From positions 1-41,332 of the IMG/VR virus record IMGVR_UViG_3300026512_000030: a DNA stretch of 41,332 nucleotides, one strand, 5' to 3'. The notes under the pieces are model-generated. The model worked only from the letters and a program-made list of their open reading frames with translations. It did no database searches and had not been told where the DNA came from. Positions 3,914 to 19,370 of this stretch are shown here, piece after piece (position 1 is the stretch's first letter; every line of letters starts with the position of its first letter). This DNA is from a virus. The position numbers and the translations under genes are program-made.

Positions 3914-4477
3914 TTAATATTCATTTATACTCTCCTTTGCAATTTTATCTAAGAACATATCTTTTAAATCATCTATTAATAATGGTCTATCATATGGAAG
4001 AAAATTTAATTCATAGTCGAATAAACTGTTTATTCTTACCATTCCTCCTTTTCCCATCCATACATAATTTTCATTTTTAGTAGGCTTATTAACATATAGA
4101 TATACCAATTTTTCGTATCTATCTTTAGCTACATATTTAAATTTACTACTAATCACTCCTAAAAAATTATAAAACTCTACAGGTATTTCAATAGGCTCAT
4201 TAGGCTCTTCATACTCCACAAATCTAAATGATATAATATCACTACTTTTGTAATTTGAATACTTATTCTCTGTTAAACTGTACAATAGTCCTCTTCTAAT
4301 AGTGAATACTTCTTTACTGTTCTCAGGGTATCCTACTATTTGATACTGTTCACCTTCTGTTAATTGCTCAAAAGGATATAACTTACTGTCATTCTCATTC
4401 TCATTCTCATTCTTACTCTCCATTAATGCAGTTCTGCCATTTCCACATGTGCCCCAAGTAATTCCACTCCAACTCAT
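3914..4477 (-). CDS. Hypothetical phage accessory protein, first gene of operon
   Basis: A 187-aa protein of unknown function. The start is supported by AAGGAGATG at a good distance from the ATG, and the promoter at 4546-4574 lies about 70 bp upstream. A short simple repeat of Glu-Asn pairs (residues 24-29) follows a Gly/Trp/Cys-containing N-terminus. The middle part ('LTEGEQYQIVGY', 'GLLYSLTENKYSNYKSSDIISF') resembles in layout the protein encoded just downstream. It is monocistronic with the next two genes, with gaps of at most about 45 bases. Confidence 0.7.
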   Translation of the reverse strand: MSWSGITWGTCGNGRTALMESKNENENENDSKLYPFEQLTEGEQYQIVGYPENSKEVFTIRRGLLYSLTENKYSNYKSSDIISFRFVEYEEPNEPIEIPVEFYNFLGVISSKFKYVAKDRYEKLVYLYVNKPTKNENYVWMGKGGMVRINSLFDYELNFLPYDRPLLIDDLKDMFLDKIAKESINEY

Positions 4478-14238: not shown

Positions 14239-14325
14239 ATGTTGATGATTGTAATTATTTCTTTTGTAATAGCCACAGTAATATTTGTATTGAGTGGTAA
14301 CAATAGAAATAATAGATTTAGATAG
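14239..14325 (+). CDS. 28-aa single-span membrane peptide
   Basis: The peptide begins MLMIVIISFVIATVIFVLSG, a transmembrane helix, and ends with a short Asn/Arg tail. AGAAAGGAG lies at a proper distance and the promoter at 14150-14178 is about 60 bases upstream. The last codons run into the tandem GATAGATTA-type repeat. The size and shape resemble type I toxin or holin-like peptides, but no antisense RNA was found, so this is only a possibility. Confidence 0.55.
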   Translation: MLMIVIISFVIATVIFVLSGNNRNNRFR

Positions 14326-14390
14326 ATTTAGATAGATTTAGATAGATTAGATAGATTAGATAGATTAGATAGATTAGATAGATTAGATAG
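14313..14390 (+). repeat. Tandem GATAGATTTA / GATAGATTA repeat
   Basis: About three copies of a 10-base unit (RATAGATTTA) are followed by five perfect copies of the 9-base unit GATAGATTA. The array starts inside the end of the 28-aa peptide gene. Its length is probably variable. A repeated protein-binding role is possible. Confidence 0.85.
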
Positions 14391-14624: not shown

Positions 14625-16100
14625 ATGGCTAAAAATAGAAATAGTAAAAGCAAAAATCATAAGAATAGTAAAAATAAAGTAGAAGTAGAATTTGTAGGTC
14701 ATAATGCAGAAGGTGTAACTGGAAGTGCTATATTAATTAAATATAATAATGCTCAATTGATTTTAGATATGGGACAAGAACAAGGTGGGGATAGATTTGA
14801 AAACTTTATGGCTAATAAGAATTTATACTCTGGGATAAAAGTTGGAGCTATAGATTTAGTAATACCATTACATTTGAATATAGACCATTTGAGTGGAACT
14901 CCATTGATAGTATCAAAAGGATATAATAAGCCAATGTTATTGCCAAAAAATTCTACAAGTATAGCAAGAGTACTATTAACTGACTCACAATATATTAGTG
15001 AGAAAGATGCTAAGTTGTTCTCTAAGTATAAAAATAAAAAGTATGACCCAGCTTATACTAAAGATGATGTTGAGAAAACATTAAGTTTAATGCAGGAGAT
15101 TGAGTTTAAACAGACAATAAGACTGTCTGAGTATATTCCTAACCTTGAGGGTGAAATCACGTTAGAGTTTATCCCAGCAGGTCATATACCATTATCATCT
15201 CAAGTAATATTAAAATTTGAAGATGGAGCAAATTGGAAAACATTATGTTATACAAGTGACATAGGTAATTTTAATAATAACTCTAAATTAATTCAATCTT
15301 TAGAGAAAATAAAACATTGTGATTTATTAATAGGTGAATGTACTTATTCAAAGAAACCTGAGAAAATTTATAATAGAGATGAAGATATACAAGAGTTAAT
15401 AAAAACAATTAAATATACTTTAGAGAATAAAGGTAGAGTATTAATTCCAGCTTTCTCAATGTCAAGAGCTCAAGAGATATTATCTGTATTACATACTTAT
15501 TATAGGGAATGTCCTTATGAGATTATAATGGATTCTCCAATGATGTTACAAATGAATAATTTATATAGAACTCGATTAATAAAAGAGGGTGCTAATGAAT
15601 ATATGCAGAAGATATTAAAATGGGATAAAGTAAGACAAATAAGAACGTCTAATGCAAGTAAAATGTGTATACAAGATGATAGTCCTAAGATAATAATAGC
15701 AAGTAGTGGAATGATTACTAATTATACAAGGTCAGCATATCATTTAGCCTCTTTAATTGAGGACAGTAGGTCTACAATATGTTTTGTTGGATATTGTGCT
15801 CCAAGTACATTAGGGAATGATATACAGCAAAAATGGGGCACTGACAATAGTGTAGTAATAAATGAAGTAGGATATAAAATAAAAGCTAATGTAAGTGTAT
15901 TCCATAGTTTTAGTAGTCATATGAACTATTATAATTTATTAGAATATTACTCAAGTATAAATACACCTAAAATATGTTTAGTTCATAGTGAGATGAAATC
16001 TAAGAAAGAGTTTGCTAAAATATTACAAGAAAGATGTTCTGAAGAGTGTAAGACAACTGAAATTATTGCAGTTAATAAAGGGCAAAAGATGATTGTTTAG
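14625..16100 (+). CDS. Beta-CASP metallo-beta-lactamase-fold nuclease
   Basis: A 491-aa protein of the MBL/beta-CASP class, whose members are mostly RNases (CPSF73, RNase J, aCPSF). The metal motif is HLNIDH at residues 83-88 (usual HxHxDH, so the second His is Asn), with AGH at 185-187 and SDIG around D212. The beta-CASP region has ECTY (E238), AFSMSRAQEI (276-285), ASSGMITNYT and a C-terminal FSSHMNYYN (the SFSAHAD-type motif). The first 18 residues are Lys/Asn-rich. Most of the fold is intact, so it probably retains metal binding, but the Asn change may alter activity. It lies just before the large structured RNA. Confidence 0.8.
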   Translation: MAKNRNSKSKNHKNSKNKVEVEFVGHNAEGVTGSAILIKYNNAQLILDMGQEQGGDRFENFMANKNLYSGIKVGAIDLVIPLHLNIDHLSGTPLIVSKGYNKPMLLPKNSTSIARVLLTDSQYISEKDAKLFSKYKNKKYDPAYTKDDVEKTLSLMQEIEFKQTIRLSEYIPNLEGEITLEFIPAGHIPLSSQVILKFEDGANWKTLCYTSDIGNFNNNSKLIQSLEKIKHCDLLIGECTYSKKPEKIYNRDEDIQELIKTIKYTLENKGRVLIPAFSMSRAQEILSVLHTYYRECPYEIIMDSPMMLQMNNLYRTRLIKEGANEYMQKILKWDKVRQIRTSNASKMCIQDDSPKIIIASSGMITNYTRSAYHLASLIEDSRSTICFVGYCAPSTLGNDIQQKWGTDNSVVINEVGYKIKANVSVFHSFSSHMNYYNLLEYYSSINTPKICLVHSEMKSKKEFAKILQERCSEECKTTEIIAVNKGQKMIV

Positions 16101-16332: not shown

Positions 16333-16361
16333 TTGACAAATAATAAGAGATGTGGTATAAT
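16333..16361 (+). promoter_or_regulatory. Consensus promoter of the large structured RNA
   Basis: TTGACA (16333-16338), a 17-base spacer and TATAAT (16356-16361) with TGTGG before it (extended -10). Both hexamers match consensus exactly. Transcription should start near 16368, where no ORF follows for about 900 bases. Confidence 0.9.
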
Positions 16362-16367
16362 AGTAGC

Positions 16368-17230
16368 ATAGCAAGAAATGGCAACAAAAGAAATAGCGGA
16401 AAGTTTTTGAAACGTAAATATTTTTGTCGATATTTAACATTGTCCTAAGTATGACAATATAATTAAAGTGCTAAGTTGGTTAGACATAGATTGTTTATTA
16501 AATTTAGAGAATTACAAGTACTCTAAGCCAACTGATAGTTTAAAAGTTAATTTTGGATATCATGATTATCAGGAATTGCAGTTTCTGATAACACAACTAA
16601 ACTTTTTAAAGTTTAGTAATAATTATAATTAACCCAGTGTATAAGGAGGCTAATCACCTTTTCTGGGACATATCGTAAATAGAGAGGTATGGTTTAAGGA
16701 TATTTTAATCATATAATCTTAGTGAAGTTAAGTAATGACTTCATTGAAGAGGCAAAGTCTCAACTATAAGATGTGGTATATCTCTAAAATTTAATAAAAA
16801 GCATAATCCTAATTGTTGTGGCAATACAAGCTCTAACAAGAGTTAATCCAAAATCCAGCTTTGTGAAAAGAGTGTGGGAAATTGGAAATTCAAAATAACA
16901 CGATTGGTTCTGAAAGAGAGAAATCTCTGTATAAAATTAGTGATTAGTTCAAGTAGCCCTTGTTAACCAAAACTCTTATAAAGAATAGGGAGAAAGAATC
17001 CCTATACAGATATTTTAAGATGAATGATGGGTGAAAGTTGCAAATACAGATGTTTGCGTAAGATAACATGTGGTTGAAAAGTATATAAGTAGCTCTTATA
17101 TGCTCATCTCAACTTCCTTAGTGGCTGAATATTATGGGGTTTTAGAAGAGTAGGGTGAAGGCTCAATTATAATTATTATTAAGCTTTAAATATTCCTAAG
17201 TGTGAGATAAATAATACCACTGCATTTAGT
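16368..17230 (+). ncRNA. Large structured non-coding RNA (GOLLD/ROOL-like candidate)
   Basis: About 860 bases with no credible ORF behind a perfect promoter. Many strong helices can be drawn: 16439-16458, a long bulged stem 16474-16484/16522-16533, 16566-16591, a perfect hairpin 16596-16617, 16633-16667, a GAAA-capped stem 16915-16928 closed by TTGGTT/AACCAA (16904-16909/16965-16970), 16985-17005, 17040-17057 and 17081-17103. AGATGA 17018/TCATCT 17104 and AAGTTG 17035/CAACTT 17110 cross, suggesting a pseudoknot. CCTAAGTRTGA occurs near both ends (16444 and 17194). Length, phage setting and ornate folding recall the GOLLD and ROOL RNA classes; membership is untested. The 3' end is uncertain, as no clear terminator was seen before the next gene. 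Confidence 0.7.
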
Positions 17231-17269
17231 GAATAATGTTTATATATTATTATTGAAAGGAAGTGCATA

Positions 17270-17371
17270 ATGGCAAGAGGAATTCCAAAGAGAGACGGAA
17301 GTGGTGGCGGAAAAGGAAATAATCAAGGTAGAGGTTGCAAGAATCCAAGTAGAAGAAACAGAAGAAAATAG
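17270..17371 (+). CDS. 33-aa Gly/Arg/Lys-rich basic peptide
   Basis: The peptide starts MARGIPKRDGSGGGKGNN and ends in a cluster of Arg/Lys with one Cys (residue 23). The ribosome binding site is GAAAGGAAG at a normal distance from the ATG. There is no hydrophobic part. The composition, like an RGG tail, is suited to binding RNA or DNA (inference). It lies directly downstream of the large RNA and could be read through from the same promoter. Confidence 0.65.
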   Translation: MARGIPKRDGSGGGKGNNQGRGCKNPSRRNRRK

Positions 17372-17390
17372 TTTATTTATTTAATTAAAC

Positions 17391-17589
17391 AAGCAATGAG
17401 AAGCTCAGAGAGTGAGCACTCAAGACAATAATGTTAGTCCAATCATATCCATCATAAATCGTTTTACTCCTTTATACCTCCTTTTTCTTAATAAAATGGA
17501 TATGAGTAAACGTGGGTCATTGCTCAGTTAGTATCGAGTTAAACCATTGGAGGACTTAATAGTGGGTTAGAATCCCACTCTCATTGCTT
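17391..17589 (+). ncRNA. Second structured RNA with tRNA-like T-arm and pseudoknot-like core
   Basis: The ends form a perfect 11-bp helix, AAGCAATGAGA (17391-17401) with TCTCATTGCTT (17579-17589). Inside are a hairpin GCTCA/TGAGC (17403-17417), AGTCC (17436-17440) with GGACT (17552-17556), and a T-arm GTGGG-TTAGAAT-CCCAC (17562-17578). The 3' half keeps the exact tRNA order: five-base stem strand, five-base variable region, T-arm, seven-base acceptor strand. The centre has TCATATCCAT/ATGGATATGA (17443-17452/17496-17505) interleaved with CGTTTTACTC/GAGTAAACG (17460-17469/17504-17512), a pseudoknot arrangement. It is not a normal tRNA because the 5' half is too long and the 3' end lacks CCA. 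The class is unknown. Confidence 0.55.
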
Positions 17590-17857: not shown

Positions 17858-17886
17858 TTGACAAAATACACTACATGTGGTATAAT
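17858..17886 (+). promoter_or_regulatory. Promoter ahead of the late operon
   Basis: TTGACA (17858-17863), a 17-base spacer and TATAAT (17881-17886) with the same ATGTGG before the -10 as the structured RNA promoter. The start is expected near 17893. Confidence 0.9.
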
Positions 17887-17923
17887 GTATAATGTAAGAT
17901 AAAAAACAGGGAAATAATAAGAT

Positions 17924-17976
17924 GAAATAAGTGATTTGTGAATAGAAATATTACATAGAATCGCTTATTTTTTTAA
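17924..17976 (+). terminator. Leader terminator / attenuator
   Basis: AAATAAGTGATT pairs with AATCGCTTATTT (one G-U) across a loop of about 24 bases, followed by a run of T ending near 17976. It lies within about 85 bases of the promoter start and before any gene. It can release a short RNA or act as an attenuator for the late genes downstream. Confidence 0.7.
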
Positions 17977-17984
17977 GTAATAAA

Positions 17985-18053: not shown

Positions 18054-19370
18054 ATGGTAAATAAAATACATGCACCAAAAGATGGTGAGACATATGAAGA
18101 TTATGGTATGAGATTATATCGTAATTCTAAAGAATATGGATTAACTAATGAGATAATAGGATTTTTACTAAATGATTTCAAAGGTGTTAATTGGGATGAA
18201 TCAGCTCATAGAAAAAAAATGACTGAAAGAATAAAAGGTTTTGATAAAGGTTATAATATTGGTTTAGAAGAAGGAATTAATAAATATAAAAAAGAAGTGA
18301 GTAATGGAAACATAGATATAGATGGTATTAATTCTATAATACCTAAAACACATTTAAAAAAATTATCTAATATGATAGGTGAATACAATATAATTAAAAC
18401 AGAAGTTGCGAAAGAACAACGCATACTTAGAAAATATATGAGACAAGCCACTCCCGCAGTATTATTGGCAGAGCAATATAGGGAGTCTTTACAAAATAAT
18501 GAGATACAATTAAGAGATATAAATAATTTTAAATTGGAAGATTTTAATAATACAGTTATAAAAGTTGCTTTATCAGATTTTCATGTAGGACTTGTAATTG
18601 AAGAATCTTATAATGAATATAATTTTGAAATAGCTAAAGAAAGACTTAATAAATTTAAAAAAGAAATATTATATTTAGCAAAAATGAATAATTCAAATAA
18701 AATATCAATAACTATGTTAGGCGATGCTATAGAAGGATTTTCTATGAGAGCAGAACAACCATTTGATATTGAGTTTACTCAATCACAACAAATTGAAAAA
18801 GCTCAACAATTAATATATGACTTTTGTATTGATTTTGTTAATAAAGGATATTATGTTGAATTATCTGGAATATCTGGTAATCACGATATCTATAGGATAA
18901 CTAATCATGGTAGAAATTCCTTGCCAGATGATAATGCTGTAAGAACAATATTTAAAAATTTACAATTGATATCAAAAGTAAGTAATAATGATAAATTCTA
19001 TGTTCATACACAAGATAAATTCGATGAGTTTTCAGAAGAAATAAATGGAGTAATTATTAAATATGTACATGGAGATGATGAAGTTAAAAATGATTCAAAC
19101 AAAATGCAAAAACATTCTAGTATTATGGGTAAACAAGTAAACATATTATTAATGGGTCATTTACATCATTATAGAGCAGTTTCAAGAAATAGAAATGAGT
19201 TTGAAATATATTGTGGAGCATTAACAGGAGCAAATGATTATGCTAAAAAGAAAGTGAAACAGATAGCAAATGCGTCACAAACTGTATTAATAATTAGGGA
19301 AGATGGAACATATTATTCATTAAATGTGGATTTACAAAAGGTAGAGGTAAGGACAGGACTTTTAAAATAG
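18054..19370 (+). CDS. Calcineurin-like metallophosphoesterase
   Basis: A 438-aa protein. The N-terminal 160 residues are helical (an Arg/Lys-rich segment about 50-130) and precede a complete metallophosphoesterase core: SDFH (D175, H177), GDAIEG (223-228), GNHD (275-278), VHGDD (H339) and MGHLHHY (368-373). These are the di-metal ligands of the Mre11/SbcD-like superfamily, so it should cleave phosphodiester or phosphomonoester bonds. The substrate is not shown. Ribosome binding site GGAGAG. Such genes often precede terminase genes in phages, where a packaging or DNA-processing role is thought possible (inference). The N-terminal extension may bind DNA. Confidence 0.9.
   Translation: MVNKIHAPKDGETYEDYGMRLYRNSKEYGLTNEIIGFLLNDFKGVNWDESAHRKKMTERIKGFDKGYNIGLEEGINKYKKEVSNGNIDIDGINSIIPKTHLKKLSNMIGEYNIIKTEVAKEQRILRKYMRQATPAVLLAEQYRESLQNNEIQLRDINNFKLEDFNNTVIKVALSDFHVGLVIEESYNEYNFEIAKERLNKFKKEILYLAKMNNSNKISITMLGDAIEGFSMRAEQPFDIEFTQSQQIEKAQQLIYDFCIDFVNKGYYVELSGISGNHDIYRITNHGRNSLPDDNAVRTIFKNLQLISKVSNNDKFYVHTQDKFDEFSEEINGVIIKYVHGDDEVKNDSNKMQKHSSIMGKQVNILLMGHLHHYRAVSRNRNEFEIYCGALTGANDYAKKKVKQIANASQTVLIIREDGTYYSLNVDLQKVEVRTGLLK

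Follow-up and report, generated by a model that had tools for sequence, protein, structure and literature searches.

A complete ROOL RNA between two candidate small structured RNAs in a phage island of variable content

What is encoded in an ORF-free gap that opens with an exact consensus promoter? The question is raised by positions 16333 to 17371 of a 41,332-nt stretch of viral DNA (the window; IMG/VR record IMGVR_UViG_3300026512_000030), where an earlier note, made from the letters alone, had drawn an ornate RNA of about 860 bases, likened it to the phage-associated giant RNAs GOLLD and ROOL, and proposed a new family or a divergent member. The best explanation overall, which we regard as nearly certain, is a complete ROOL RNA in a large phage of the Bacillota type, probably transcribed from the promoter at 16333-16361 with a leader of about 240 nt and, by homology, likely to form an octameric cage. 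The less expected part is the setting, in which the ROOL lies between two small structured RNAs at a site where a close relative has none.

Family identity of the large RNA

A scan of the window that took in all Rfam families returned ROOL as its single match, at positions 16609..17184 of the + strand (RF03087, 263.2 bits, E 3.5e-59), with a score 2.7 times the gathering cut-off of 99.1 bits. The match spans the model from its first position to its last (1-574 of 574) and is not cut off. GOLLD had no match anywhere in the window in this all-family scan, and the covariance-model check proposed in the earlier note bears out its analogy to GOLLD and ROOL by a full-length match to ROOL. By the same result, both GOLLD and a new giant family were excluded as the identity of 16609-17184, a stretch that matches a known model end to end. 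The proposed extent of about 860 bases also gives way, since the ROOL part is 576 nt long and the leader upstream of it carries a separate element (element A, below).

Retention of the ROOL pairing is evident in the printed RF03087 alignment: both positions carry a letter in 154 consensus pairs, of which 124 are standard, and 53 of these 124 differ from the consensus at both positions; sliding the partners by 1-3 positions, as a control, left 37-55% paired. The 30 non-standard pairs fall mostly in the P16-P18 part, with ten model positions missing. Candidate ROOL loci were also fetched by a motif scan of IMG/VR and GTDB genomes, and with the Rfam model 36 other records proved to carry ROOL, at scores of 216-363 bits, a range in whose lower part the window copy (263 bits) sits. 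A decayed ROOL, that is, a relic unable to fold or assemble, would suit this low-ranking score and the local mismatches in the P16-P18 part, but the 53 pairs kept through change on both sides, the complete model match and the exact promoter upstream make decay quite improbable. The window ROOL adds a further copy to a family already known and is ordinary and somewhat divergent; the description "divergent member" holds as to family and low place in the range, although the divergence is only mild.

The promoter upstream is of the sigma-70 consensus type, TTGACA-17-TATAAT, at 16333..16361 on the + strand, and is as exact as had been claimed (12/12), with TG preceding its -10 element; transcription would start near 16368. 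Shuffles of the window lead one to expect only 0.04 exact copies per strand, whereas the window itself has two on the + strand (16333 and 17858) and one on the - strand. Across 16362-17190 the longest stop-free run is 64 codons on the + strand and 54 on the - strand, and the longest ORF in the gap is a 54-aa GTG frame at 16468-16632. No credible ORF thus lies over the RNA, as described, although the end of the gap at 17371 takes in a 33-aa ORF. Strong structure was borne out by the fold of 16362-17210 (-200.5 kcal/mol versus -167.9 +/- 6.3 for 20 shuffles, z -5.2), and the GAAA stem (GAGA-GAAA-TCTC) and ornate architecture noticed earlier match ROOL consensus helices. The repeat CCTAAGTRTGA, noticed near both ends of the RNA, is of a kind that arises by chance, and both copies fall outside the ROOL model. 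Pairs of 12-mers that differ at one position or none number 12 in the region and 6.8 in shuffles, and 14.5% of the shuffles have 12 or more. As near-repeats are this frequent in shuffles, the repeat was rejected as a terminal signal.

The island in related phages

Two related phages were reached through the gene at the downstream border of the island, an exonuclease/metallophosphoesterase-like gene (18054..19370, + strand; phrog_284, PHROG E 1.9e-64) that was not found in GTDB genomes. Its protein is 94% identical in L004, an 8.9-kb fragment, and 82% identical in L003, a 102-kb record; L004 is the closer relative and L003 a sibling phage. The window and L003 have in common the gene order beta-CASP gene, island, exonuclease-like gene. 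At the upstream border is a beta-CASP/RMMBL metallo-beta-lactamase-fold nuclease (14625..16100, + strand; PF10996 E 2.1e-22, PF07521 E 5.5e-7), which holds the same position in L003, adjoining an island of four tRNAs and an ORF resembling an HNH endonuclease, from which ROOL is absent. The promoter of the L003 island, also 12/12 with a 17-base spacer, aligns with that of the window, and 16333-16361 is thus the promoter of the island; the RNA had been credited with its own promoter, which is indeed exact but whose homologue precedes tRNAs. Also in L003, the beta-CASP frame is split into two ORFs, and at 4310-4440, upstream of the tRNAs, stand the hairpin units CCCTTTGGCGGACACCAAAGGG and ACTTTAGCTGACACTAAAGT, which resemble each other and have the tail TTTATTTTTTATACAAAGT in common.

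At the same site of L004, as read from the 8.9-kb fragment, the conserved elements A and B lie side by side (matches at 134-228 and 230-471, respectively) with no ROOL between them. An 853-bp segment comprising ROOL and the 33-aa ORF (16538..17390, + strand) is present in the window and not at the L004 site, and no target-site duplication is evident at this segment. Across the three sequences the contents of the island vary, from four tRNAs, to A and B alone, to A, ROOL, the 33-aa ORF and B. Searches of phage and plasmid collections gave no nucleotide match to the locus.

Neither protein-coding neighbour emerged as a ROOL partner. The 33-aa ORF (17270..17371, + strand; ATG at 17270) is a basic, glycine-rich orphan (MARGIPKRDGSGGGKGNNQGRGCKNPSRRNRRK) and was rejected as a ROOL-linked protein, having no relatives beside other ROOLs or in phage records. 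The beta-CASP nuclease, for which a direct search of IMG/VR returned nothing, has relatives in ten gut phage records, and ROOL occurs in 0 of 8 phage records with its relatives. The gap before the beta-CASP gene, at 14320-14390, holds a short tandem repeat resembling TAGATTAGATAGATT. Relatives of the portal protein are, among the matches listed, mostly from Bacillota phages of about 120-160 kb (27-31% identity), so that the 41-kb window probably represents part of a large phage genome.

Downstream of ROOL, small same-strand ORFs at 17270 and 17644 would suit a riboswitch-like leader or a long 5' untranslated region of a downstream gene in place of a free RNA. The core of the region, however, matches a free-standing RNA family, and a separate 12/12 promoter, at 17858, stands before the next full gene, so that such a leader deserves hardly any credence beside a free ROOL RNA. 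No strong terminator-like site was found on the + strand from ROOL to the 17858 promoter. Between that promoter and the 18054 gene lie a hairpin and a T-run; at L004 743-895 the same type of promoter is also exact, and the terminator-like hairpin differs in sequence and still forms. An attenuator or a small RNA is possible at 17858-17978.

Elements A and B

Element A (16474..16533, + strand; L004 164-224) is a small conserved RNA in the ROOL leader, for which the same three-way junction is predicted in the window and in L004. The region of A is 79% identical to L004 134-228 over 99 nt, and its second hairpin is TTAGAG/CTCTAA in the window and TTAAGGA/TCCTTAA in L004. The closing stem adjoins a hairpin directly, an arrangement that to some extent recalls how acceptor and T arm are placed in a tRNA. 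A conserved structured element in the leader, together with a whole stretch that folds better than shuffles, would fit a giant RNA of a new family, neither ROOL nor GOLLD, that starts at the promoter, runs to about 17210 and so covers about 860 nt. Yet 576 of those nucleotides are an end-to-end ROOL match, chance accounts for the repeat near the ends, and element A occurs in L004 without ROOL and is hence a separate unit, all of which renders a new family scarcely believable and leaves ROOL with a leader as the reading of the stretch.

Element B (17391..17589, + strand; L004 230-467) is predicted to be a structured RNA with a 10-bp acceptor-like stem and a branched inner domain. Its D-like arm is GCTCA/TGAGC in the window and GTTTA/TAAAC in L004, and its T-like arm, with the loop TTAGAAT, differs between the copies at both positions of four pairs. 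The pairing is complete in each copy (41 of 41), a percentage that is partly built in because the structure was picked from the same two sequences; 0 of 500 shuffles equal this pairing, slid versions are 34-45% paired, and the fold has a z of -3.1 against shuffles. The double changes, found in 11 of the 41 pairs, are stronger evidence for element B than the pairing percentage. Neither an Rfam match (for the tRNA and tmRNA models, at E up to 1) nor an ARAGORN tRNA or tmRNA at normal threshold was found for B. An intron-bearing tRNA was considered and rejected, as the ARAGORN intron mode was empty at normal threshold and no anticodon stem is common to the copies. Because it has no anticodon arm, B is best termed tRNA-like, not a tRNA.

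Two copies each of A and B were found, in the window and in L004. A model built from both B copies (the L004 copy minus 43 loop bases) found only the same two among 51 sources; applied to 391 genomes from a single bacterial class, a search run without a positive control, it gave no copy, and scans of IMG/VR with the B loop motif and with its 5' end returned only the L004 relative again. Elements A and B are thus apparently undescribed structured RNAs flanking ROOL, and the novelty of the locus would lie here, in two sequences. More speculatively, A and B may derive from tRNA genes, B may act on the ROOL transcript as a processing signal or accompany it as a tethered partner, and ROOL may be a cassette gained or lost between them, a proposal that we consider possible and rather doubtful.

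The proposed cage and comparison with known RNAs

For the window locus, transcription, processing from a longer transcript, cage assembly and a role with cargo are proposed as follows. The single promoter at 16333-16361 would drive the leader, A, ROOL and perhaps B. Tight spacing from tRNAs, a few bases in some ROOLs elsewhere, suggests that tRNA-type processing may set the ROOL ends, which would here be cut from the longer transcript, possibly at element B. Like the homologous ROOLs whose structure is known, the RNA would form a flat monomer of many helices. Such monomers would assemble into a hollow, protein-free octamer, inside or on which cargo may be carried. The octameric cage is the best supported of these steps, such cages having been observed by cryo-EM for env-120 (PMC12286853) and for the ROOLs of E. 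faecalis and Firmicutes CAG:227 (PMC12515178). A ROOL-type RNA of L. salivarius rivals 16S rRNA in abundance (PMC12286853, PMC5643018), and cages have been suggested to enclose tRNAs, ribosomes, metabolites or proteins (PMC12286853).

ROOLs are encoded in phages or prophages. Their frequent closeness to tRNA islands is already known (PMC12286853) and recurs among the 30 relatives with flanks read, whose counts are partly non-independent owing to near-identical contigs: a same-strand tRNA lies within 1.5 kb of ROOL in 26, such a tRNA lies at most 200 nt downstream in 15 and within 25 nt of the 3' end in nine, and a 12/12 promoter lies at most 500 nt upstream in seven. No canonical tRNA was found in the 41-kb window, itself from a phage record. 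The probable self-kissing loop L18, which precedes GCTCA in the 3' part of the RNA, is variable among copies L188-L217 (GTCGCTC, GTAGCTC, GTTAGCTAC, CGACGG), and a short self-complementary core is kept in the copies read; more sequences may allow a covariation test of this intermolecular contact.

With the structure of the ROOL cage solved, close phages with and without ROOL at one site, with conserved flanks, offer a natural comparison for what ROOL contributes to a phage. The tRNA-like element B, if further copies confirm it, would be relevant to the as yet unexplained association of cage RNAs with tRNA islands.

Compared with tRNA, the predicted element B has an acceptor-like stem, a D-like arm and a T-like arm with its TTAGAAT loop, but no anticodon arm, no GG in the D-loop, and A in place of T-loop C56. 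In tmRNA, too, a branched domain stands in place of the anticodon arm; B differs in having no recognised tag ORF and no Rfam or ARAGORN match to tmRNA. With GOLLD the window RNA has in common its size class, phage setting and tRNA association (features of GOLLD as described in PMC12286853), whereas it has no Rfam GOLLD match. With known ROOLs it has in common the full-length model match, the retained pairing, the phage setting, a consensus promoter as in several relatives, and an island position that holds tRNAs in the sibling L003. It differs from them in local divergence of the P16-P18 part and in lying in a phage without an adjoining canonical tRNA, with element A in its leader and the tRNA-like element B 206 nt downstream.
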